Shown: positions 3,862 through 39,484 of the stretch, piece after piece | Position numbering within the stretch: position 1 is the first letter of the stretch | How the letters are laid out: each line of letters begins with the position of its first letter | From: a virus | Strand: one strand, 5' to 3' | IMG/VR virus record: IMGVR_UViG_3300047287_000308 | Span: 1 to 52,676 of that record | Length of the DNA: 52,676 nt | The notes under the pieces: model-generated | The model's database searches: none | Seen by the model: the letters and a program-made list of their open reading frames with translations, nothing else | Told to the model about the DNA's origin: nothing | Made by a program: the position numbers and the translations under genes

Positions 3862-5259
3862 ATGAGTTTTATTCTGAACCCCTACTGGCACAAAGAACCT
3901 CGGACCTGGGTTAGGGAAATAACGTTTAACGCTGGTGTAACACCAGGAGGAGCCAACATACTTACAGATGAAGAAGGAAATGTCTTTCATTTAGTTCCTG
4001 TGTATGTAAGCTCTTCCCCCATACCCCTTTACGAGCCGTCTGTAATAGTAACAAAATTTTCGTCCAATGGGAGTTTACTGTGGAGTAAACACATCAATAG
4101 AGAGCTGGGATTTCAAAATCAAATGACCATAACTTATGATTATAATTGGTTTGCTGCCCTTGGCCCACAAGGTTTAATAATTGTAGCAGGGTCTGGGAAC
4201 GATGCTGAAGACACAGCACCTTCAAGATATACTAAAGTCCTTTGTCTGTCTGAACTAGATGGTAGTTTAAAATGGGCTAAATCTTTATCTAGAACACCAC
4301 TTGGTGGATATGGTCAACCTAGATGCTTTTTTTCTAATGTAACTGCTAATAGTATAACTGGGCACACATATTTAGTATTCTCGTATGGAAACTATGGTTA
4401 CAATGCGAGTGAGATGACGGTGATAACATTAGGTCCAGACGGGAGTATCACAGGTGCGGTTTCTTCTAGTCTCCCCTCGTCGTCTGGTCCCCTTCCAATT
4501 AAAGGAGGAATAACAAATCAAGATGGCGCTGTAGCTTTAAATGCTGTTGGTAGCTTTGGTAGTTGTACTTTATTGTTAAATTCAGATGGCAGTATCAATA
4601 GAGGAATGAGAGTATATGCGGGAATATCTCTAAGAAACCTCGCTTCTCTTAAGCAAAATGGTAATATTTTATGGCCTTCAGAGCAAGGGGTTGTTGAGTT
4701 TAACTCAGACCTAACTTCTGTAGACTCTCTCTACAGTTCTCTTGGTTCTATGTATAATATCCAAGAGCGAGCTGATGGGTCTTATGTAGCAATTAATAAC
4801 TTAACTGCTCCCGAATCAACGGGATGGGGGACTTTGACCCCTAACGTCTGGGGGAATAGCTCAATGTACGTAATTAATAGCAACTTTACTCAAATACAAG
4901 CTATAAGAGAGATCGGGTATGGTCCGGGCGCAGGTAGCCCTAATACATACCCGAAAGTTTCTGGAGCAAGTCCGAACGTGGATAGATATGTTGTAGCCTC
5001 CCCTTATGATTATGGCCTAGTAATTATCTCATTTAATGCTAGTTTTGAGTACGATAGGTATCAAACTTCTTCAAGTAACTACGTAAAATTTATGAGCCCT
5101 ACTGCGGGGCTCCCTAGAAGCATAACTGAAGGCAGCTTACCTATTGTATCGAATCCTTCTCTTAGTTATTCGGCCATAAGTACTATAATTAATGACTACT
5201 CTAGCTCAGTAGTAGTAGAAAATTCCACACAAATTTGGAGCTTCTATACTTCTCCTTGA
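3862..5259 (+). CDS. Fibre/tail protein with PQQ-like β-propeller character
   Basis: A 465-residue β-rich protein that starts 5 bases after the adhesin stop. Blade-like segments recur, such as SSNGSLLWSKHI (about residue 70) and ELDGSLKWAKSL (about 130). These resemble PQQ-like or SBBP propeller repeats, in which a strand pair ends in a Trp-Ala/Ser-Lys motif. There is no enzyme motif, signal peptide or membrane segment. It closes the AT-rich fibre block and its last 16 bases overlap the end of the convergent gene on the minus strand. A tail-tip or receptor-binding role is inferred from context; the fold assignment is tentative. Confidence 0.65.
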   Translation: MSFILNPYWHKEPRTWVREITFNAGVTPGGANILTDEEGNVFHLVPVYVSSSPIPLYEPSVIVTKFSSNGSLLWSKHINRELGFQNQMTITYDYNWFAALGPQGLIIVAGSGNDAEDTAPSRYTKVLCLSELDGSLKWAKSLSRTPLGGYGQPRCFFSNVTANSITGHTYLVFSYGNYGYNASEMTVITLGPDGSITGAVSSSLPSSSGPLPIKGGITNQDGAVALNAVGSFGSCTLLLNSDGSINRGMRVYAGISLRNLASLKQNGNILWPSEQGVVEFNSDLTSVDSLYSSLGSMYNIQERADGSYVAINNLTAPESTGWGTLTPNVWGNSSMYVINSNFTQIQAIREIGYGPGAGSPNTYPKVSGASPNVDRYVVASPYDYGLVIISFNASFEYDRYQTSSSNYVKFMSPTAGLPRSITEGSLPIVSNPSLSYSAISTIINDYSSSVVVENSTQIWSFYTSP

Positions 5260-5609
5260 GTGTTAATAAACTCACAGGTTTCAAGGATCGCTTTTAGAAA
5301 CTCCCCCGTCCATTTAGGGTTGGTTTTAATCGATCCTTTTTCTAGTGAGCTATCTGGTTCAAAGTTTGTCATGTCAAACTCCGGCTCTAGGTCCCACCTC
5401 ATGCTATTGATATCGGGCCAACCGTTTTTAACATAGGATAAAAACATTTCTCTTTTATTATCTAGCAGATATCTACCCCCTAGCAATTTCCACCTATCCC
5501 CCAAAAAGCAAAAGATATCGCCCTGGGACAGGACTACAACATCCCCTAGCTCAGCATCTTCTCTGAGTGGTAGCTGATTATTTCTCGGGTGAAGTCTGAC
5601 AACTTTCAT
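5244..5609 (-). CDS. Hypothetical protein, 121 residues
   Basis: A soluble protein with no recognised family. The N-terminus (MKVVRLHPRNN, then GDVVVLSQGDIFCFLGDRWKLLGG) reads like a small β-barrel; the C-terminal half is acidic and Trp/Pro-containing. Its ATG overlaps the stop of the upstream 45-residue gene (ATGA), so the two form a translationally coupled pair. The 3' end overlaps the convergent fibre gene by 16 bases. Codon use is ordinary for the window, which supports it as a true gene. Confidence 0.6.
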   Translation of the reverse strand: MKVVRLHPRNNQLPLREDAELGDVVVLSQGDIFCFLGDRWKLLGGRYLLDNKREMFLSYVKNGWPDINSMRWDLEPEFDMTNFEPDSSLEKGSIKTNPKWTGEFLKAILETCEFINTQGEV

Positions 5610-5743
5610 TTTTTATCCTCAGAGAATAGTTCTTCCAGAGCTTTTTCTAACCTCTCAATAGCCATTACACAAAGGTATTCATTGCCAGAGACCTTAGCAT
5701 CGGCGTATGCGTCGATCATCGCCGCCAGCTCTTTTCTGTTCAT
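5606..5743 (-). CDS. Small helical protein, 45 residues
   Basis: A short reading frame beginning MNRKELAAMIDAYADAK and ending LFSEDKK. It is charged, strongly predicted α-helical, and ends in an ATGA overlap with the next gene. A degenerate copy of the putative late box (GTTTATAG, bases 5772-5765) ends 18 bases before its ATG, at the spacing seen for other virion operons. No family is recognised. Confidence 0.55.
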   Translation of the reverse strand: MNRKELAAMIDAYADAKVSGNEYLCVMAIERLEKALEELFSEDKK

Positions 5744-5746
5744 TTG

Positions 5747-5763
5747 GGTTAAAGGTTCATAGA
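5747..5763 (+). promoter_or_regulatory. Putative phage late-promoter box (GGTTAAAG-N5-TAGA)
   Basis: GGTTAAAG, five bases, then TAGA. The T of TAGA lies 18 bases before the ATG at 5778. It matches boxes in front of other virion operons in this window. A degenerate copy faces the other way on the minus strand (5772-5758), so the short intergenic space is bidirectional. Confidence 0.55.
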
Positions 5764-5777
5764 ACTATAAACGATTT

Positions 5778-6062
5778 ATGGCCCAAAATGTCCAGGAACT
5801 AGACATTTCTCAGACTTACAGGAACCTCTTATTCAATGACCTGACCTCGACTACTCAAGGTATTCCTGTAAATCTAAATGTTGTCAGCCGACGAGACGAG
5901 GCCAGAATCCAAGACGGGTCGGGCAAATCCAGTCCGCTACTGATTAGTCAAACCGAAGTCTCGTTAGAAGTCTCACCGACCTACCTTGACTCTGTAGTTC
6001 GTCTTCAGGAAGTTATCGACGCAGCTACAATCGCTCAAAACCACTCTATTGTCTGGAGCTAA
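5778..6062 (+). CDS. Hypothetical virion-associated protein, 94 residues
   Basis: A small soluble protein, MAQNVQELDISQTYRN at the start, with no recognised domain. It is the first gene of a two-gene plus-strand unit behind a putative late-promoter box, and its stop is 2 bases before the next ATG. The partner is probably a β-sandwich virion protein. Its function is unknown. Confidence 0.6.
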   Translation: MAQNVQELDISQTYRNLLFNDLTSTTQGIPVNLNVVSRRDEARIQDGSGKSSPLLISQTEVSLEVSPTYLDSVVRLQEVIDAATIAQNHSIVWS

Positions 6063-6064
6063 TA

Positions 6065-6442
6065 ATGTCTTATTCTTATAACGTGTTTGAATCGTCTTGT
6101 AGTATTAACATCGCCACTTCCGAAGAGTTTGCGACTGTTCCTATCGACCCTCTCGCCGCTCCTGTCGGAGGTCATGTTGTTGTTCTGTCGATTGTTGTTA
6201 GTAATCGCTCTGAATCTGATAGCGTACCTGTGAGTCTTGCCTTGCAGAAGAACGACTCTGCGAATAACTGCAGTCTTTGTAAAGATCTACCGATTCCCAT
6301 TAATACTCTGTACAACCTAAATGCTAGTGCTAAGATTGTGTTAAACAGAGAGGACCAGCTCAAGATCTGGGCTGATCCTTCTGGGGAAGATCTGGTTGAT
6401 GTTACTGTGTCTTATGCAGTTTACACCCCGGCTTCAGTATAA
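6065..6442 (+). CDS. Probable β-sandwich virion protein
   Basis: A 125-residue protein with alternating hydrophobic strands: GGHVVVLSIVVSN, VPVSLALQ, PIPINTLYNL, KIVLNREDQLKIWA and VDVTVSYAVYT. The sequence from the Pro-Ile-Pro turn to the final strand follows a pattern often seen in small phage virion proteins with an Ig-like or jelly-roll sandwich. There is no membrane segment. It ends 9 bases inside the convergent phoH gene. A decoration or tail-connector role is possible but not shown. Confidence 0.6.
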   Translation: MSYSYNVFESSCSINIATSEEFATVPIDPLAAPVGGHVVVLSIVVSNRSESDSVPVSLALQKNDSANNCSLCKDLPIPINTLYNLNASAKIVLNREDQLKIWADPSGEDLVDVTVSYAVYTPASV

Positions 6443-7153
6443 GTCGGCGTAGGACTTGATAACGTTTCTGACAAATCCAGAACGTACAATATCTCCAAAA
6501 CCAAACTGCACACCACCAACTTCAGGCACTGAAGCAAGTCGTCTAGCTGCATCACTAAGACCATCAGCACCAAATCTACTTGCCAGGTCGCGCTGTACAA
6601 CGTCACCCAGCAAGGCGATCTTAGAATCATTTCCTAGACGGGTAAGCACGGTCATGACACTGTGCGTAGTTGCGTTTTGCATTTCGTCAGCGATGATCAT
6701 GCAGCGGTTCAGAGAGCGTCCGCGTAGATGCTCCAGCGGTAGGAACTCGATGATCTTCTTGTTGAAGATGTAGTCCGACTTGCCCTTGGACATGAACACT
6801 TCTAACGAGTCCTTTACCGGTGCGATGTGGGGGGCGACTTTTTCATTCAGGTCACCAGGTAAGAACCCCAGACCTTGTTCGCCTACTACCTCAACGATGG
6901 GTTTTACATAGTACACTTTGTCAATCTGTCGTTTGCTGAGCAACTCGCAGGCTACGTACACAGAGAGCAGGGTTTTTGCAGTACCAGGGGGGCCGGTGAG
7001 AATGGTTAGAGTATTACTCCTAAGGCTGTTGAGCGCATCAGATTGAGACTTATTCATAGGCTGAATTTGCCTCGGTTGTTCAAACTTGTAAATGACGGAC
7101 TCAACTGCCATTTGGTCGTCTTCGATGCGCTGACGCCGGGTTTTTCTGGACAT
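6434..7153 (-). CDS. phoH: PhoH-like P-loop ATPase
   Basis: A 239-residue PhoH-family NTPase. Walker A is GPPGTAKT at residues 54-61; Walker B is MIIADEMQN at about 152-160, with the DE-x-QN signature of PhoH proteins. Also visible are YYVKPIVEVVGEQGLGFLPG and a sensor-like segment SKIALLGDVVQRDL. PhoH-like genes are very common in marine and cyanobacterial phages; their role during infection is unsettled (proposed ATPase or RNA helicase activity linked to stress). I chose the ATG of MSRKTRRQR; a longer frame back to a TTG at 7186 would run into the upstream terminator. It lies downstream of the kinase-like gene but behind that terminator. Confidence 0.9.
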   Translation of the reverse strand: MSRKTRRQRIEDDQMAVESVIYKFEQPRQIQPMNKSQSDALNSLRSNTLTILTGPPGTAKTLLSVYVACELLSKRQIDKVYYVKPIVEVVGEQGLGFLPGDLNEKVAPHIAPVKDSLEVFMSKGKSDYIFNKKIIEFLPLEHLRGRSLNRCMIIADEMQNATTHSVMTVLTRLGNDSKIALLGDVVQRDLASRFGADGLSDAARRLASVPEVGGVQFGFGDIVRSGFVRNVIKSYADLY

Positions 7154-7891: not shown

Positions 7892-8224
7892 ATGACAGAC
7901 ACTCCAGCGCTGAGGTGGGGGGCAAGGGCCACCTCCGATCCAACCCACGATCTGCAGTTTTTGCAAGATTCGTATGACGATGACCACGACTTTGCAAGAC
8001 GCGGAGAATTGTTCATCAACGAACCTCTTCAAGAAGGTTACTATGTCGATTGTGACGGCGTTGCGAGACGACTGGGTGATCTGTCTCCGGTATTGTTCTC
8101 TCGTATCAACTTTACCGGGTTACGCGAGTTTGCCGATGATACTGCCGCTGCCGCTGCGTCTCCTGCCGTACCTGTTGGTGGAATGTACCACACTGCCGGT
8201 GTATTAAAGGTAAGAAGAGTTTAA
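7892..8224 (+). CDS. Small phage protein with C-terminal VPVGG-Y-T-V-KVR motif
   Basis: A 110-residue acidic protein. Its last 20 residues, from AVPVGGMYHTAGVLKVRRV, match an ending I recognise from many short phage proteins of unknown function (VPVGG-x-Y, then V-K-V-R). The N-terminal 80 residues show no domain. It is the first gene of a plus-strand unit that leads to the baseplate hub, so a minor structural role is plausible. Only one ATG is available upstream of the conserved part. Confidence 0.6.
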   Translation: MTDTPALRWGARATSDPTHDLQFLQDSYDDDHDFARRGELFINEPLQEGYYVDCDGVARRLGDLSPVLFSRINFTGLREFADDTAAAAASPAVPVGGMYHTAGVLKVRRV

Positions 8225-9111: not shown

Positions 9112-12100
9112 GTGTCTTCACTGTATCACTGCAAGGCCAGAGTTTTATACAAACCCTTTGGTAGCAACAAAGCTATCGTTTTCGACGAGAGGCAAATTGC
9201 TCAGCTTAGTGTAAACCTGTCTTGGCAACCCAATCCAGGAATAGCTAATGCACAAGGGGCATCGTCACTGCCGATTGCGGCTAGTGCGTTAGCTAACTCT
9301 ACTTGTCAGGTAACACTTACAGACCCGTATTTGACGGGTATAGCTTGGCCTGTGCTGTATGATGCAGCGTCAGTGTACACCACTGCTTACAACGCTACAG
9401 CAGCGGGTATTTTGCTGCGTCCTTGCGGAAAGGGTGAAAACCCCCTGACTAGCGATTGCTACCCGTATGTCGATATTGACAAGAACGATGTTGCTCCGCA
9501 AGAAGTTGTAGGGGATTACGCACACCTATTAATAAGCTTGTGGTATGAGATAGGGAGTACGGTCTTCGGGTCGGATTATTACTTCAGAGTTACCGGCATG
9601 TCTGTTAAGCACGGTATGGAGTACCCGTCTGTGACTATCTCCGGGACCGAGGCCAGGGCTATGGTATTTAACCAGACTTTGGCGAGTTTGAAATTCGATC
9701 AAGGTTCGACTGTCAACGAAAACTTGCAGAGGATCGCTAAAGAAGCGGGATATCAGATTAACTTCTGTAAAGAATCTCTGACAGATGGCTATAAAATTCC
9801 AAGTGTTATTACCGAGCGCGGTAGCACACTACAAGAAGCTCTGATGAGGAATATTAACGCTGTTGGGGGGAATATGCTTTCCTTGCCAATGCGAGAGTAT
9901 GCAAACCAGTTTAGTGTATGCACCAGAGCAGATGTGCAGCAGGTTTGTACGGTATTCTACCTAGGTAAAGGACTATATGAGGGTTATGAGATAAGCGGCA
10001 ATACTAATGCTAACTTTGCAACAAACAACCGTCAATATCCCGGTCAGTTTAGCTCGGGTTCGGGGTACACTTCAGAAGCTTTTAAGGCCGAAGTATACGA
10101 AATCAGTGACATTACCCCTAAGGCTAGAGCGGCTAAGATGAGTTCGGTTAAGCTCAAACCAGCTTTTCCTTTACAATTTGACTCGTTAAAGAATAGAATT
10201 CAGGATAAAAGAACAACAGGAGGCTGGGTTTGGCGCGGAAGCGGGCCCACTATCACCCCTGAGCAAGTCGAAAATACGAATTTATACGGTGTTTCCCCTA
10301 ACGGGACCAAAGCTGTATCGTATCTGAAAGGCTATGTTGTTGCAGCTAACGAGAAGAACGGCTCAGTCGAAGTAGAGACGGAGTTTTTCTTGCAGGTATG
10401 CACAAATGTCAAAGAAGATAGCAAAACTAAGAAATGCTTCTCTAGGCCGATTCATCAGGAAACTCTCAACTTGACTGGGGTCAAAGTAAAGGCTATTGAG
10501 AAGTTAGAAGCAGGGCAGGAAATCGGTTCGTCGACCAACGAGAAAAAAGAATACACCAGATTTACAATAAAAGGATATAATAACGATGTTATTACCGTCG
10601 CTCCGGAGATTGTTTGGAAGTATGCGGTATCGAAGGAAGGTCTGACTGATAAGGAAAAAGAAGAGTTTGCTATCAAGTCTGGTCAGACTGTTTCCGTACC
10701 GTCTCCTGCTGAACTGACAGGGGCTAAACCCAGCGAGGGAGCTGTTTTCATCGGTAAAGTTGGCAGCACGGGGGGTTCCAGTGGTCCTCATGTACACATA
10801 CAAGAATCTCTAGGAAAAACCTTGTCAGAAAATCAACTAATAGAGTTGGCTGGTAAGTATGTTCTTGTGGATAATGTCCCTCTTACCTCTTACCCTAAGG
10901 GTGATGGTTTTGGAGCACCACGTAGTGGACACCTGCATGCAGGAGTAGACTATCCGATAGCTGAAGGTAAAGAGATAAAAATATTTGGAACAGTGGGTGG
11001 TAAGATCTACCAGCCAGGCGGTTGTGGTAACGGAGTCTATTTTGTAGTACCCGGTGGTAAAGAGCTTCTAATTTGTCACATACAGAATAATACTATCCCC
11101 CCTAACATACAGGGTCAGGCATCAACAGGGTCGAGCTCAGGTTACAATCCTAGCGTTCAGACCGCTCCTACCACCCAAGGGCTTAATGTCCAGACAGCGT
11201 TCATGGGAGTGCCTAAAGCTCTTAGACTTGTTCCAGGTCGTACAATCCTGTCGTTCATTACCGACTATGACCAATGGGTCGAGCAAGGAAGACCGGCAAA
11301 TGCCGACCCTAATGTCCTTATCCCGGACCGCTTCCGGAGTTGGTTCATTACAGCAGTAAAATTACAATGGTCTGGTAACCTTCGGGTTAATGTAACTGGG
11401 GTTAGTGACTGGGGTGCTTCTCCAATCAAAGTGCCGAGATTTGAAAAATACTTAGAAGATATAAAACAATATGACGGGGCTAAAATCACAAATTCTTATT
11501 TTGACTACATTCGTAGTCCGGGTCATTTGTGCTACCGGGTGAACGGCCAAGACAGTTGTTCTATTTATTGCGATGAAGCACAGAAGATTCAGTCGTTCTT
11601 GACTCAAGGACAACCGGCGGCCGGGGTGGGATCAGGAGGCGTCCCAGGAGCACCTGTGGGTAAATGCCAGTACAGAGGTAGTAAATATCCAAACGAACGA
11701 GTTAATAAAATTCTGAATGCTGCTTATGCATCTGGTATAAAAACAAAAGAAGGGCTGTCAGGAGTTGTGGGTAATGCCTTAGTAGAAAGTACTGTAACAT
11801 TGGATCCTACCATCCAGAATAAGGCGGGAGGTAGGGATTTTGGTGTATTTCAGTGGAACGATCGAAGACCAGCTTTGGAGAAATTTGCTAGAGATAATGG
11901 TGCTGACTATAAAAATTTTGATCTTCAAATGTCCTTTTTCAGGTTTGAGTTAGGCGGGACTGAATCAGCTACTATATCAGCTATGAAGAGTGTTTCATCT
12001 CCTGAACAAGCTGCTCAGGTATTTATGAATAGTTATGAGAGACCATCTGAAAAGGCTAGAGTTAGCAGCATAGGTCTAAGACAACAATATGCTCGAGAAA

Positions 12101-12129
12101 TTTTTAATGAAACAAATTGTCAACCGTGA
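9112..12129 (+). CDS. Baseplate hub with two peptidoglycan-degrading domains (permuted M23, Phage_lysozyme2)
   Basis: A 1005-residue multidomain tail protein that starts at GTG. Residues 1 to about 390 look like a gp27/late-control-D hub (SVKHGMEYPSVTISGTEAR, then a segment beginning STVNENLQRIA). Residues about 545-665 carry M23/LytM metallopeptidase motifs in reversed order: G-S-T-G-G-S-S-G-P-H-V-H (His 560, 562) comes before G-H-L-H-A-G-V-D (His 609, Asp 613). Residues about 860-1003 match the Phage_lysozyme2 tail-lysozyme pattern: VVGNALVES with likely catalytic Glu 892, then FGVFQWNDRRPALEKFA and YERPSEKAR. It probably pierces the peptidoglycan during DNA entry. There is no signal peptide, as expected for a virion enzyme. 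Confidence 0.8.
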   Translation: MSSLYHCKARVLYKPFGSNKAIVFDERQIAQLSVNLSWQPNPGIANAQGASSLPIAASALANSTCQVTLTDPYLTGIAWPVLYDAASVYTTAYNATAAGILLRPCGKGENPLTSDCYPYVDIDKNDVAPQEVVGDYAHLLISLWYEIGSTVFGSDYYFRVTGMSVKHGMEYPSVTISGTEARAMVFNQTLASLKFDQGSTVNENLQRIAKEAGYQINFCKESLTDGYKIPSVITERGSTLQEALMRNINAVGGNMLSLPMREYANQFSVCTRADVQQVCTVFYLGKGLYEGYEISGNTNANFATNNRQYPGQFSSGSGYTSEAFKAEVYEISDITPKARAAKMSSVKLKPAFPLQFDSLKNRIQDKRTTGGWVWRGSGPTITPEQVENTNLYGVSPNGTKAVSYLKGYVVAANEKNGSVEVETEFFLQVCTNVKEDSKTKKCFSRPIHQETLNLTGVKVKAIEKLEAGQEIGSSTNEKKEYTRFTIKGYNNDVITVAPEIVWKYAVSKEGLTDKEKEEFAIKSGQTVSVPSPAELTGAKPSEGAVFIGKVGSTGGSSGPHVHIQESLGKTLSENQLIELAGKYVLVDNVPLTSYPKGDGFGAPRSGHLHAGVDYPIAEGKEIKIFGTVGGKIYQPGGCGNGVYFVVPGGKELLICHIQNNTIPPNIQGQASTGSSSGYNPSVQTAPTTQGLNVQTAFMGVPKALRLVPGRTILSFITDYDQWVEQGRPANADPNVLIPDRFRSWFITAVKLQWSGNLRVNVTGVSDWGASPIKVPRFEKYLEDIKQYDGAKITNSYFDYIRSPGHLCYRVNGQDSCSIYCDEAQKIQSFLTQGQPAAGVGSGGVPGAPVGKCQYRGSKYPNERVNKILNAAYASGIKTKEGLSGVVGNALVESTVTLDPTIQNKAGGRDFGVFQWNDRRPALEKFARDNGADYKNFDLQMSFFRFELGGTESATISAMKSVSSPEQAAQVFMNSYERPSEKARVSSIGLRQQYAREIFNETNCQP

Positions 12130-31767: not shown

Positions 31768-32210
31768 GACCAGTAGTACCAGAAGGCTGGAGGCAACGGC
31801 AGACAGTGTCCATGGACGAGCCTCCTGAACTCGACCAACGAGACCTTCAGCAAGAGCTTTGGAAGCCTTGGAAAGATAGTCCGTATGAGGTTTCCAATAT
31901 GGGTCGTGTCAGACGCGACCAAAAAGACGGAACTTACATGATCAGGCGTCCCCGTAGCGATGGCAAAGGTCACCTTAGATACAACTTGACCTGGGAACGC
32001 AACGGCACTGCGTATCGAGAAGAGCCTTTTATTCACCAGATGGTCATGGCCCTGTTCGGTCCACCTAAACCAGCAGGAGACCACATCATTATCCTCCATG
32101 GTGGGGACAATGGCCATGATAACAGACTTTCCAATCTTAGCTGGGGCTCCCGTGCTGAGAATGTGGAAGAAGCCTATGACAACGGAAAACTTCACCGATC
32201 TAACTACTGA
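31755..32210 (+). CDS. HNH homing-type endonuclease with NUMOD4 motif
   Basis: A 151-residue free-standing nuclease. NUMOD4 is at about residues 36-58 (WKPWKDSPYEVSNMGRVRRD) and the HNH core at about 95-135 (FIHQMVMALFG, then D-H-I-I-I-L-H, DNRLSNLSWGSRAENVEEAY). Such genes cut recipient alleles and spread by homing; insertion beside nrd genes is common in phages. A strong ribosome binding site, GGAGGT, lies 9 bases upstream. The N-terminus carries VVPEGWR (31776-31793), a motif shared with otherwise unrelated proteins here. Its stop overlaps the nrdA ATG. Confidence 0.85.
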   Translation: MDHLRPVVPEGWRQRQTVSMDEPPELDQRDLQQELWKPWKDSPYEVSNMGRVRRDQKDGTYMIRRPRSDGKGHLRYNLTWERNGTAYREEPFIHQMVMALFGPPKPAGDHIIILHGGDNGHDNRLSNLSWGSRAENVEEAYDNGKLHRSNY

Positions 32211-34144
32211 TGACCACTGAACAAGTTCCTGCCTGGATGACCCAAGAAGCGATTGACACTCTGTCTCGCGGATATCTCATGCCTGGGGAAACCCCTAGGG
32301 ACATGTGGCGTAGGGTCTCTAACACCGCTGCGAGAATTCTAGCTTTTCCCGACATCGAAGAAGATATTTTTGAGATGTTCTGGCGAGGTTATTTCGGCGG
32401 TGCTACTCCTGTGCTTAGCAACATGGGTACCAACAGGGGGCTTACTATCAGTTGTTTTGGCGTAGCCATTTCCGATAGTGTTCAGAGTATCTATTCACAC
32501 CTCAAGGAAGTTGCTGCGCTAAGTAAGAACGGCGGTGGTGTAGGGGTGTATTTTGGCGATATCCGACCATCTGGGTCACCTATTACCGGTGGAGGTAAAA
32601 GCACTGGGATTGTCCCTTGGGCTCGTCAATATGATCAGTGCGCGTCTGTCGTATCGCAAGGTGGTGTACGTAGGGGTAGTTTTGCAATGTATCTGCCAAT
32701 CTCTCACCCGGATCTGCCAGAGTTGCTTCGTGCTAAAGACCACTCGCAAGGTGACCCCAGGAACTTTATCGATAGCAACATCGCAGTAGTTATCGAAGAT
32801 TCTTGGATCCAGGAGATGCTCAGGGGAGATGTTGAGAAAAAGAAGCTGTTTGGTGAGGTTCTGAAGATGAGAATGATCAGCGGTTCTCCGTATATCACTT
32901 TCATTGACAATGCCAATAATGCCAACCCTGAGTGCTATGTCCAGCGTGGGCTTAACGTAAAGTCATCTCAACTTTGCAACGAGATCTATCTATACAATGA
33001 TGAAAACCATACATACGTGTGTGTTCTTTCGTCGCTGAATCTTGCCAAGTACGACGAATGGAGGAACTGGCGCGGGGCCAATACTGGTAAAACCGCCCCG
33101 GAACTCGCTGTGTACTTTCTAGATGCAGTTGTCGAAGAGTTTATCAACAAAGCCGACAGGATTCCGTCTTTGGGACGTGCGGTAAGGTTTGCCAAGAAGT
33201 CTCGTGCTCTCGGTCTAGGGACGATGGGTCTTCATGCTCTGTACCAGTCTCGTGGTTTGCCCTTTGCATCGCCAGAAGCTCGGGAGCTGAACATTGAGAC
33301 TCACAAGTACATCCATGATATGGCCCTAAAGGCTTCTCAGGATATGGCCGTTGAGTACGGTGAACCGGAATGGTGCGAAGGTAACGGGGTTAGACACACT
33401 CATATCACTGCAATTGCCCCGACCAAGACGAATTCATCTATCTGCGGTGCTGTGTCGGAAGGTATTGAACCGATCAATGCTAATTATTACACAGCTAAGC
33501 AAGCCAAAGGTACGTTTACTCGCAAGAACCCGTATCTGGAGAAGTATCTAGAAGAAATCGGGCATAACACCAGCTCTGTCTGGCAGTCCATTCTCGATGC
33601 GAGGGGCTCTGTGCAGCATCTGACAAACATTCTCAGTGCTGATGCTCGTGAAGTCTTTAAGACTGTCTTTGAGATCGACCAGTTTGAGATCGTCAAGCAA
33701 GCTGCAGATAGACAACCGTTTGTGTCTCAAGGACAGTCAGTCAATCTATTTGTCGACCCAGAGTGCAGTGCGGAATACTTGTATAAGCTGCATCTGTCTG
33801 CATGGCATGCAGGTCTTAAGGGGCTTTACTACCTCAAGTCCAGCTCTCTGCTGGTTAAGAAGAAGTCTAAGCCTACTGCCAAGGTGTACACCAAACCTGG
33901 TTGTCCTTATTGCGACCGGGCTAAGTCGTTACTCAAAGCTCAGGGGTATCCTATTGTTGAAAAACACCCGAATGACTGGCCTGGACAGAAATTCCCCTAC
34001 GCCACCGTACCTCAGATCTGGCTGGGAGACGAGTTCGTAGGCGGCTGTAGCGACCTGGAGCACAAGCTGCTTAGCAAGACGTTACAGAAAGTTTTTAACC
34101 CCGGCACTGCCGAAGAGGTTGACTGCTTGGCCTGTCAAGGCTAG
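32210..34144 (+). CDS. nrdA: Ribonucleotide reductase large subunit fused to glutaredoxin
   Basis: A 644-residue NrdA. Active-site cysteines are Cys 82 (LTISCFG), the radical Cys 256 (SSQLCNEI) and Cys 271 (CVLSSLN); Tyr 540-Tyr 541 (LYYLKSS) are the radical-transfer pair. No N-terminal ATP cone is seen, so dATP inhibition may be absent. Residues about 556-630 are a glutaredoxin domain with C-P-Y-C at 565-568 and T-V-P-Q-I. The normal reductase tail C-L-A-C (639-642) comes after it. The fusion should let the enzyme carry its own electron donor. It pairs with NrdB upstream; a structured RNA-like segment follows the stop. Confidence 0.9.
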   Translation: MTTEQVPAWMTQEAIDTLSRGYLMPGETPRDMWRRVSNTAARILAFPDIEEDIFEMFWRGYFGGATPVLSNMGTNRGLTISCFGVAISDSVQSIYSHLKEVAALSKNGGGVGVYFGDIRPSGSPITGGGKSTGIVPWARQYDQCASVVSQGGVRRGSFAMYLPISHPDLPELLRAKDHSQGDPRNFIDSNIAVVIEDSWIQEMLRGDVEKKKLFGEVLKMRMISGSPYITFIDNANNANPECYVQRGLNVKSSQLCNEIYLYNDENHTYVCVLSSLNLAKYDEWRNWRGANTGKTAPELAVYFLDAVVEEFINKADRIPSLGRAVRFAKKSRALGLGTMGLHALYQSRGLPFASPEARELNIETHKYIHDMALKASQDMAVEYGEPEWCEGNGVRHTHITAIAPTKTNSSICGAVSEGIEPINANYYTAKQAKGTFTRKNPYLEKYLEEIGHNTSSVWQSILDARGSVQHLTNILSADAREVFKTVFEIDQFEIVKQAADRQPFVSQGQSVNLFVDPECSAEYLYKLHLSAWHAGLKGLYYLKSSSLLVKKKSKPTAKVYTKPGCPYCDRAKSLLKAQGYPIVEKHPNDWPGQKFPYATVPQIWLGDEFVGGCSDLEHKLLSKTLQKVFNPGTAEEVDCLACQG

Positions 34145-36334: not shown

Positions 36335-39300
36335 ATGAACAGCAAATTCCTCCCGGAATACGATTATACCCGCACCCTGTTGCAAGATGTGCTCTATGAG
36401 CACCTGAGCGAAGTCTCAGGGTCTTTGCTGCCGGTGTATGTTGTTGACTTTAAAGTCATGGCTCATGACATCAACAGATACGCCGAGCCGATTGAAGACC
36501 TGTTTGAGAAAAACGAATCTCGCTGGAGGGAAATCATCCGCTGTTTGTGGGCTTATAAGCTAAATCGCGGGCCGGACATGATGCCGCAAATGGATTACGT
36601 CTGCATTGTAGTAGACGACTCCAGAGATGACATGGGTGAGGACATGGCGGAAGCATCGTATAACGGTAAAGGGTACTGGCGCCACATCGAAGCATTCAAA
36701 CTCGGCATGCCAGAGTACAAAGGTGGGCGTGGCTCCAAGCCTAGTCTGTTTGACAAGATTGAAGAAGAAGGACTGAAGTATATCAAAAGCCCAGGTTCTA
36801 CTTTTCACTACTACGTCAAGCCGTTTTACGAAGCCGATGACATCGCCGGGAAGCTCTGTCGGTTGAAGCGCGAAGCTCTGCCGTGCACTCCTCTGGCGCA
36901 GCGTTACCTGCTGCTGGGGACTCTGGACGGGGACTGGCAAGGGCTTGTGAAAGACGAACACGGCATCATCTGGTGCAACACAGCTAAATACCTGCCTCGG
37001 ATTCGCTCTGAGCGCGAGGTGTGCGACTACTATCTGCGTCAGGCAGGTCTGGTGATGACTTCAGCTCGCGAGACTTACACCACAAAGGTCGAGATTGGCG
37101 ATAGCGGGGATAATCTCAGCCCTGGAAGCCCACTGAGGTTCTTTGACCTGTACGAGGAAGATAAAGTATGGGGATGGTCTGAAGCCGATACCAAGTTCTT
37201 CCTTAATGTGTTGAACTCTAATACGAAATCGAACAATTCCAAGCATCTAGCCGCTGCCGCTGCGCGTATCTCAGCGTCGGGGCTGTGCTACCCCGTTGTT
37301 CAAACTCTACCGGAAGAAGTTGCTGATCATCTTGTCCGCGCCGAGACCGTTCGCAAGGAAAAATCCAACCCGGAATTGCGTGGTTACAACAAAAAATTCT
37401 GCGTAAACTTGCGCGATGAAGTAGAGTTCCAAAAGTGCAAAGAAGCTGCGGTCGAAGACGACAAGCTCAAAGAACAGCTCAAGTCCCAAACTGAGATGCT
37501 CAAGTCCCAGGCTGATACTCTGAGCGCCGAGGAGCTGAAGACGCTAGCCAATAATGTCAGGAATATGAAAATGGCCAGGGACCGGCTGAAAACGAAGCTC
37601 AAGAGCTTTGCGGACGTGGTATTTAGGACGCCTATGGCAAAACAAACTGCGAAGATGCCTGCGAATCAGAGCAATGGGCTTAACCCTCTGACTCCGGCTG
37701 AAAAGTATAAACTTTTTCTCTTTTGGTCGGAAAGTCGGGGGGTTTACTTCCGCTTCAACCTGGACTCAAAGTTAACAGGGTTTCACGACATGTACGAGCA
37801 ATATACTCCTTCTAAGCACCCCGGACCCAAAAGCATTGTTTATCCGTCATGGTTTTCCTTTCTGGTCCCTGCCAATTCAATCACAGCAGCAGAGATTCAA
37901 GGGAAATTTCTTGACCCTACGAGCGGGAGCACCCGCAATCTCCCCACTCTTGCCCGCGAAGTTTCAGAGTTCGCCGAAGCTTTGATTATCTACCGGTCAG
38001 GACGCAGCTCTGAAGTAACTGACTTCATCCTCGGGATGGAGACGGTCAAGGCCCGTGTACATAGACGTCTTGGCGGAGGGAAATACGAACTGGGTATCGC
38101 CTACTCTCCTGATGAGATGAAAGGCACTGATTTTCGCAACAAAACTTACGCTTATGTCCCTGAGTTGAGCTGGTTTACACCTGAGTTGCAGGCACTGAAG
38201 TTTGATGACATCATTAAGATCTTCCCTCCGTACGAGGCGGAAATGTTCAAACTTATCATTGGAAGGGCTTGTGTAGGTAGGACAGGGTCAGTCCACCCCG
38301 GTACTAACAAGATTATCGAGCACGGGTTTAGAAAGGCTGGTATTGTTGTCGGAGAACCTAGTGTTGGTAAGTCTAAAACATTGACAGGTATCATTGAAGC
38401 TATGCAGTACGTCGGTTACAACGTCTCGTCTATCGGAGAATTCGGGAGTAAGTTTAACCAAGGCCCTGTAATTGTTTCGCATCTTGCGTACAAAGACGAC
38501 CTCAACCTCAAAAATCTTGAGGACATGCTCACGGCCCATAGCTTTAAGTCTATTGTAACGGGTGGTACGGAGAAAGTCGAGAACAAAGGTGTCGATGCTG
38601 TTGAAGTAGTTGCTAATACTGTAATTTTGGCTAACTGTAACGAAATCAAGCCGGAGTTGTCTTACGAACTCGATGCAGGGGCAATTAACCGTCTTGGATT
38701 GATCTCTACGTACAAAGTCTTTGAGATGGAAGAGATGAGTGAGATTGAAGGCCATGACCTGCACCCTATCCCGCATATTCGCTGGCTGTGTGAACAGTAT
38801 AATACCGACCCGCTGAGTCTGTATCTTCGGGTGTTACGTGATTGTACTGACTTTTTCATGGACAAAGTCAACTCGGGTGTAGATGTACACTTCTACTCAG
38901 AGAGTCTTATGCCGTATTTGAGGATTGCAACTCACAAAAACGCTCTGGAGTGTTTTATCCGGCTGGCTATGTTGTGCTATGCCATACGAGATCAGAAATG
39001 TAACGGAGCTAATTACATCCCAGAGATTAACTTGGGTACCATGAACAAAATCCTAGAGAACACTAGGTTTATTATGATAGATATGCGAGCTAATAACCTA
39101 CGTAGGATTATGAAAGCCGACTGGGAGTCACAAAGTCGGCAGTTAAATCACCCGTATTGGGCTCAGCGTAAACTGTTGCTGAGTAGTATTGACCAGTCCT
39201 ACGAAGCTTTCAATACGTACAAAAATGACAAAGACCTCGGCCTGGCCATTGAGAGTGTTTTCTCTGTGCTACGCTTGAGAGACGGATTCAGCATGTCCAA

Positions 39301-39484
39301 GAAGATGCAACACATCGTCAGGGCATGGGAAGGAATTCGTGGTGAGAGTAATCGCATCTATGCCTTAGCTAAGAAGCTCACAGCTCAGCTACCGCAAGAA
39401 GAGCTTGATGTGATCACCAACCTGGCTGTAAGAACAGATGCTAACTACCTGTACAAGCCCGACTACGACCCTAAGAAACTGTAA
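36335..39484 (+). CDS. Replication protein: FEN-like 5' nuclease fused to SF3-like helicase
   Basis: A 1049-residue protein with two apparent enzymes. Residues about 30-230 fit a FEN/PIN-type 5' nuclease: YVVDFKVMAHDINRYA, YKGGRGSK, the acidic E-A-D-D at 166-169 and TLDGDWQGLV with Asp 198 and Asp 200. A charged coiled coil follows (about 365-430). Residues about 660-800 are an SF3-like P-loop ATPase: Walker A GEPSVGKS at 673-680, Walker B in HLAYKDD (716-722) and motif C NTVILANCNEI (about 760-771). It is expected to unwind the fork and remove primers or flaps. The AEP primase gene follows with a TAATG overlap, supporting a shared job. Confidence 0.7.
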   Translation: MNSKFLPEYDYTRTLLQDVLYEHLSEVSGSLLPVYVVDFKVMAHDINRYAEPIEDLFEKNESRWREIIRCLWAYKLNRGPDMMPQMDYVCIVVDDSRDDMGEDMAEASYNGKGYWRHIEAFKLGMPEYKGGRGSKPSLFDKIEEEGLKYIKSPGSTFHYYVKPFYEADDIAGKLCRLKREALPCTPLAQRYLLLGTLDGDWQGLVKDEHGIIWCNTAKYLPRIRSEREVCDYYLRQAGLVMTSARETYTTKVEIGDSGDNLSPGSPLRFFDLYEEDKVWGWSEADTKFFLNVLNSNTKSNNSKHLAAAAARISASGLCYPVVQTLPEEVADHLVRAETVRKEKSNPELRGYNKKFCVNLRDEVEFQKCKEAAVEDDKLKEQLKSQTEMLKSQADTLSAEELKTLANNVRNMKMARDRLKTKLKSFADVVFRTPMAKQTAKMPANQSNGLNPLTPAEKYKLFLFWSESRGVYFRFNLDSKLTGFHDMYEQYTPSKHPGPKSIVYPSWFSFLVPANSITAAEIQGKFLDPTSGSTRNLPTLAREVSEFAEALIIYRSGRSSEVTDFILGMETVKARVHRRLGGGKYELGIAYSPDEMKGTDFRNKTYAYVPELSWFTPELQALKFDDIIKIFPPYEAEMFKLIIGRACVGRTGSVHPGTNKIIEHGFRKAGIVVGEPSVGKSKTLTGIIEAMQYVGYNVSSIGEFGSKFNQGPVIVSHLAYKDDLNLKNLEDMLTAHSFKSIVTGGTEKVENKGVDAVEVVANTVILANCNEIKPELSYELDAGAINRLGLISTYKVFEMEEMSEIEGHDLHPIPHIRWLCEQYNTDPLSLYLRVLRDCTDFFMDKVNSGVDVHFYSESLMPYLRIATHKNALECFIRLAMLCYAIRDQKCNGANYIPEINLGTMNKILENTRFIMIDMRANNLRRIMKADWESQSRQLNHPYWAQRKLLLSSIDQSYEAFNTYKNDKDLGLAIESVFSVLRLRDGFSMSKKMQHIVRAWEGIRGESNRIYALAKKLTAQLPQEELDVITNLAVRTDANYLYKPDYDPKKL

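Follow-up and report, generated by a model that had tools for sequence, protein, structure and literature searches.

Here, we report that a protein of 1005 residues, likely a tail/baseplate hub, very probably carries a circularly permuted M23 (LytM-type) metallopeptidase with one zinc site. The protein is encoded in a viral DNA stretch of 52,676 nucleotides (the window), which comes from an IMG/VR virus record. In its residues 544 to 668 (positions 10741 to 11115), the motif block that comes last in ordinary M23 enzymes stands first, and the motif that ordinarily comes first stands second.

Layout of the likely hub protein and its M23 motifs

The open reading frame (ORF) begins with a GTG codon and spans positions 9112 to 12129 on the plus strand, as do all features below. 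Its N-terminal region (residues 1 to 391, 9112 to 10284) is conserved across relatives and was modeled by AlphaFold with low confidence; a profile search of this region against the PDB gave no credible sequence relative. This region is followed by a beta domain without catalytic motifs (residues 400 to 500, 10309 to 10611) and by the putative permuted M23 cassette (about residues 519 to 675, 10666 to 11136), whose edges are approximate and were transferred from a comparison of the S-TIM66 and S-TIM61 hubs. A C-terminal hub region (residues 692 to 850, 11185 to 11661) contains a strongly conserved VPRAL..PGRT.LSFITDY block. The last domain is a Phage_lysozyme2 tail lysozyme (residues 866 to 999, 11707 to 12108), which matched PF18013 well above the cut-off (E = 7.8e-23; 81.6 bits versus 28.2), as anticipated in an earlier note on this DNA, and also matched the phi29 gp13 lysozyme structures 3csr/3csq.

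The same note had called the protein a baseplate hub. This identity is supported by synteny and by a Foldseek search, in which the full-length AlphaFold model retrieved baseplate and contractile-injection hubs, VgrG spikes, and the MuSo2 43-kDa tail protein. The best E value was 6e-8 (baseplate/VgrG proteins), at low TM-scores and with a low-confidence query model (mean pLDDT, 64.6; pTM, 0.38). Thus, the hub identity is likely rather than shown. The source virus is marine and cyanophage-like. Elsewhere in the window, positions 32210 to 34144 encode a large subunit of ribonucleotide reductase whose C-terminal part matches a thioredoxin-like domain. Positions 36335 to 39484 encode a protein of 1049 aa that matches a polymerase family (phrog_26716) in its N-terminal part and phrog_25243, named DNA primase, in its C-terminal part.

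As described in a review, the H(x)nD motif of M23 enzymes and a further histidine (His260 in LytM) precede the H-x-H block, the latter by about 30 residues; two His and one Asp are the zinc ligands, with the first H-x-H histidine activating water (PMC9662197). In the hub domain, V-G-S-T-G-G-S-S-G-P-H560-V-H562 comes first, followed by G-H-L-H609-A-G-V-D613 and then by L-L-I-C-H656. The first block (G-S-T-G-G-S-S-G-P-H560-x-H562; 10741 to 10800) is canonically C-terminal and corresponds to positions 69 to 86 of the Pfam M23 profile, and H609-x-G-x-D613 (10936 to 10950) is the canonically N-terminal motif. H656 (11077 to 11079), which aligns to the AHL strand of canonical M23s, is the counterpart of the accessory catalytic His (LytM His260). 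By homology, H560 would be catalytic, and H562, H609, and D613 would be zinc ligands. The earlier note had placed the G-P-H-x-H block before H-A-G-V-D and had counted all zinc and catalytic residues as present in swapped order. The ORF translation agreed with both the order and the coordinates, and H560, H562, H609, D613, and H656 were all found.

Among 52 aligned permuted domains, H560, H609, G611, D613, and H656 are invariant, and position 562 is His or Asp. Since the motif residues are invariant across these domains, the swapped order is not due to chance. A search for homologues with the same order, which the earlier note had asked for, showed the swapped order in every full-length homologous hub found. 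The hub domain thus contains the H(x)nD motif, the H-x-H motif, and the accessory catalytic His of the M23 family, and its H(x)nD motif follows H-x-H instead of preceding it. Because of this swapped order, we call it a permuted variant rather than an ordinary member of PF01551.

It is improbable that the M23 fold persists here in a catalytically dead form that serves for binding or as an architectural element, in the manner of EnvC/NlpD. M23s that have degenerated and act structurally are indeed known (PMC9662197), and gp33 of phage P60 is without the usual His of H-x-G-x-D; yet the active-site set is complete in the window and near-completely conserved in the family.

Tests of circular permutation

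A profile built from 21 hub domains matched solved M23 structures as two stretches in swapped order (E = 2.7e-17 for 3slu), with profile positions 55 to 123 aligned to residues 227 to 299 and positions 4 to 36 aligned to residues 305 to 337. The same swapped two-stretch picture was obtained when an alignment of mostly H-x-D members was compared with M23s in the PDB. On native-order sequences, the Pfam M23 profile gave partial matches, with best stretches such as 69 to 86 or 2 to 56 of 96 positions. When the halves were re-joined in silico, a single stretch (from 2 or 4 to 86 to 89) was matched in all five members tested, and the score was higher in each of them (re-joined versus native, 24.9/22.5 bits for the window domain and 45.4/40.8, 36.6/31.7, 51.2/46.6, and 24.2/21.5 bits for the others). 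The window domain is below the Pfam cut-off of 28.7 in both forms, and several of its relatives exceed it. With hhalign, the re-joined profile aligned to canonical M23 over 106 columns (score, 152; E = 4.6e-27), versus 72 columns for the native-order profile (score, 86; E = 2.1e-14).

Residues 528 to 692 were predicted by AlphaFold from 52 sequences as one compact domain (mean pLDDT, 85.7; core blocks, 95 to 97; pTM, 0.77), a prediction that may lean on remembered M23 folds. Foldseek of this domain against the PDB gave no match at an E value of ≤0.001; several of the best-ranked matches were lysostaphin, and M23 matches were partial only, with a TMq of at most 0.34. Since Foldseek aligns in sequence order, low PDB TM-scores are expected for a permuted fold. 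Four matches at an E value of <1e-3, covering 140 to 168 columns, were obtained in a viral library, namely, the S-TIM5 hub, a tape-measure fragment, the P60 internal virion protein, and one unnamed protein. The circular permutation proposed earlier is thus supported by the swapped PDB matches, the gains on re-joining, and the single confident domain that came from the suggested structure prediction around residues 530 to 680.

Comparison of closely related hub genes provided further evidence. The S-TIM66 and S-TIM61 genes share 97 to 100% DNA identity along most of the gene, but identity falls to 36 to 52% in windows covering about residues 542 to 670, and the windows flanking this part are mixed. 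Similarly, the L018 and L019 hubs are 70 to 95% identical over most of the gene and 43 to 46% identical in the domain core; one member of this pair has H-x-D and the other has H-x-H. The exchanged unit includes both M23 halves and leaves out the upstream beta domain.

This upstream domain was matched weakly by Pfam M23 in 15 of 22 members (best E = 2.6e-4) and by barrel-sandwich families in a few, and it aligned to canonical M23 over only 27 columns in hhalign. It has weak M23-like similarity, a tandem origin is plausible, and the H560-x-H562 block might complete this degenerate domain in canonical order, with the second half left as a relic. We consider this very unlikely, since the cassette edges leave the upstream domain outside, insertions of about 200 aa part the two in several relatives, and the permuted domain alone is predicted confidently. 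In addition, among the ORFs that pass the permuted profile, the upstream domain was detected in hubs alone and in none of the other permuted M23 proteins. Judged from its sequence, the beta domain could be a tandem-duplication relic or an unrelated barrel. Finally, Pfam detects fragments, but it is hardly credible that these are separate, incomplete M23 pieces that share no active site, because both are conserved jointly, in one order and with similar spacing, in 52 diverse domains, are predicted in isolation as one confident domain, and are exchanged together as one cassette (S-TIM66/S-TIM61 and L018/L019), the last of which argues directly against independent fragments.

Relatives in viruses and Patescibacteria

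Full-length hub homologues were found in cyanophages S-TIM5, S-TIM54, S-TIM61, and S-TIM66 (about 30 to 34% identity), which have the neighborhood of PhoH, hub, sigma factor, and TerL in common with the window. The hub gene was also found in 21 further viral contigs, some of them cut short; a related-locus search with a single hub protein as the query found nothing, and the alignment of permuted domains offered no block of sufficient conservation for such a search. In hubs of about 1200 aa (L009 to L015, L024, and L025), the beta domain is separated from the permuted M23 by an additional domain of some 200 aa; it is amidase-like by eye and in L009 matches the baseplate protein phrog_30576. The L007 hub ORF (5001 to 7151) ends at 717 aa, past the permuted M23, and homology runs on to position 7994, which points to a frameshift, a stop, or a sequencing error. 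LAGLIDADG_2 was matched weakly in two hubs, under its cut-off.

A DNA pattern of G-P-H-x-[HD], a gap of 115 to 145 bases, and H-x-G-x-D was used to search more widely. It returned 110 viral stretches, 88 of which passed the permuted profile at an E value of <1e-3 (48 representatives at 85%, one cellular locus included). Because the pattern was codon restricted and demanded the swapped order, 88 is a minimum and gives no measure of how frequent canonical forms are; these contigs overlap partly with the 21 of the homology search. The permuted domain occurs in S-TIM5-type hubs, TMP_3 tape measures, a P2 gpD-type hub, an SLT transglycosylase protein, and proteins of about 550 aa. Named phages with the permuted order include Acinetobacter Vieuvirus (tape measures), Moraxella Mcat20, Synechococcus phage S-EIVl, and P60. 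The usual His of H-x-G-x-D is replaced in P60 gp33 (L229, 2778 to 5780), which has the permuted order and an alternative H(x)8D. The S-EIVl protein (L006, 1622 to 2368; 248 aa) is annotated as peptidase M23 family and has the permuted order with H-x-D; it gave no Pfam M23 match at an E value of ≤0.1. Asp takes the place of the zinc-ligand His in H-x-H in 32 of the 89 profile-passing loci (88 viral and one cellular), which may give a His/Asp/Asp zinc site; examples are L168 and L071, and also L028. Fecal contigs MT836188/MT837655, phage phig1e, and Ma-LMM01 gp95 were rejected as permuted members because of their canonical order, as was the peptidase of Anabaena phage A-4L, which is likely the counterpart of the solved structure 9k2v.

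In 257 Gb of cellular genomes, the codon-restricted pattern gave 36 stretches, of which one, from a Saccharibacteria MAG, passed the permuted profile; the other 35 were apparently unrelated proteins or did not lie in one open frame. Permuted M23s of about 375 to 440 aa were found in Patescibacteria, which are very small bacteria (L156/L179, L181, L182, L183, L189, L190, and L192), and in a PF01551 survey, the split-order signature was recognized by eye in roughly 9 of 39 genomes of this group. L181 and L182 each have a permuted and a canonical M23 ORF within one stretch. PF01551 surveys of 40 and 41 genomes of two other phyla showed essentially full-length canonical domains among the matches listed; these miss the weak end, so permuted forms in those phyla are compatible with the surveys.

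When re-joined domains were placed in a tree with canonical ones, a branch with 100/98 support parted 47 of 47 phage permuted sequences from the canonical and Patescibacteria permuted ones. When the tree was built only from the H-x-G-x-D half, so that the junction was left out, the same split was obtained with a support of 89. Constraining all permuted sequences together was rejected (AU P = 0.008), as was constraining the seven Patescibacteria permuted sequences together (P = 0.016). Since the Patescibacteria permuted M23s group with canonical ones, at least two separate permutation events are probable. Both alignments are short (134 and 74 columns), canonical sequences were sampled narrowly, and the same data served to examine the groups; thus, two or more origins are likely, not proven. 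On balance, we favor a joint reading in which M23 was permuted on two or more occasions at the same hairpin, once in a phage lineage with the His/Asp/Asp variant, which would be a virion-specific cassette exchanged between tail proteins, and separately in Patescibacteria.

Proposed function and comparison with known systems

In ordinary M23s, the A-H-L strand and the G-S-T-G-x-S-x-G-P-H-x-H strand are connected by a hairpin, and sequence comparison shows that the permuted domain is opened at this point; the ordinary ends are bridged by a linker of about 45 residues. Conservation and homology suggest that the two halves fold as a single M23 domain and form one zinc site, where H609, D613, and H562 would bind zinc, and H560 and H656 would activate water. 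New ends derived from one hairpin should be adjacent, so the domain could be inserted into the hub as a plug-in cassette. Most likely, the permuted domain is an active peptidoglycan endopeptidase that works with the tail lysozyme at cell entry: the M23 would cleave the peptides that cross-link host peptidoglycan as DNA enters, and the C-terminal lysozyme beside it would cut glycan strands.

M23 is a major peptidoglycan-hydrolase family recognized by its motif order. Pfam splits or misses the permuted branch, which is therefore under-annotated in phages. The adjacent ends created by the permutation suggest a way for a peptidase to be plugged into a structural hub, and cassette exchange supplies natural domain edges for the enzyme module. 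In addition, the H-x-D variant opens a directly testable zinc-site question, and the permuted M23 is a natural starting point for studying the permutation tolerance of the fold. The literature searched, mostly titles and abstracts with few subscription journals, contained no description of a permuted M23, LytM, or lysostaphin, and "permut" occurs nowhere in the 2022 M23 review.

Compared with LytM/lysostaphin and other M23s (PF01551), the hub domain has all motif residues and both sequence halves in common, but its halves are swapped and a linker joins the old ends; where LytM/lysostaphin have the hairpin V..G..V..GQ before IG, the hub domain has its new ends. Phi29 gp13 (3csq) likewise is a tail protein that pairs a Phage_lysozyme2-type lysozyme, a sequence match, with an M23. 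However, gp13 is classed among the ordinary M23B enzymes, with H(x)7D as its motif (PMC9662197), whereas the window M23 is permuted and lies ahead of the lysozyme within a far larger hub. The S-TIM5 gp111 hub (YP_007006114.1) and its S-TIM54/61/66 counterparts are full-length homologues with the permuted order and the same neighbors, but are only about 30 to 34% identical and are annotated only as virion structural proteins. Natural circular permutation in a peptidoglycan-hydrolase superfamily has been described for permuted NlpC/P60 enzymes (LRAT-like, YaeF; PMC6403190), which, unlike M23, belong to a different, cysteine-based superfamily.
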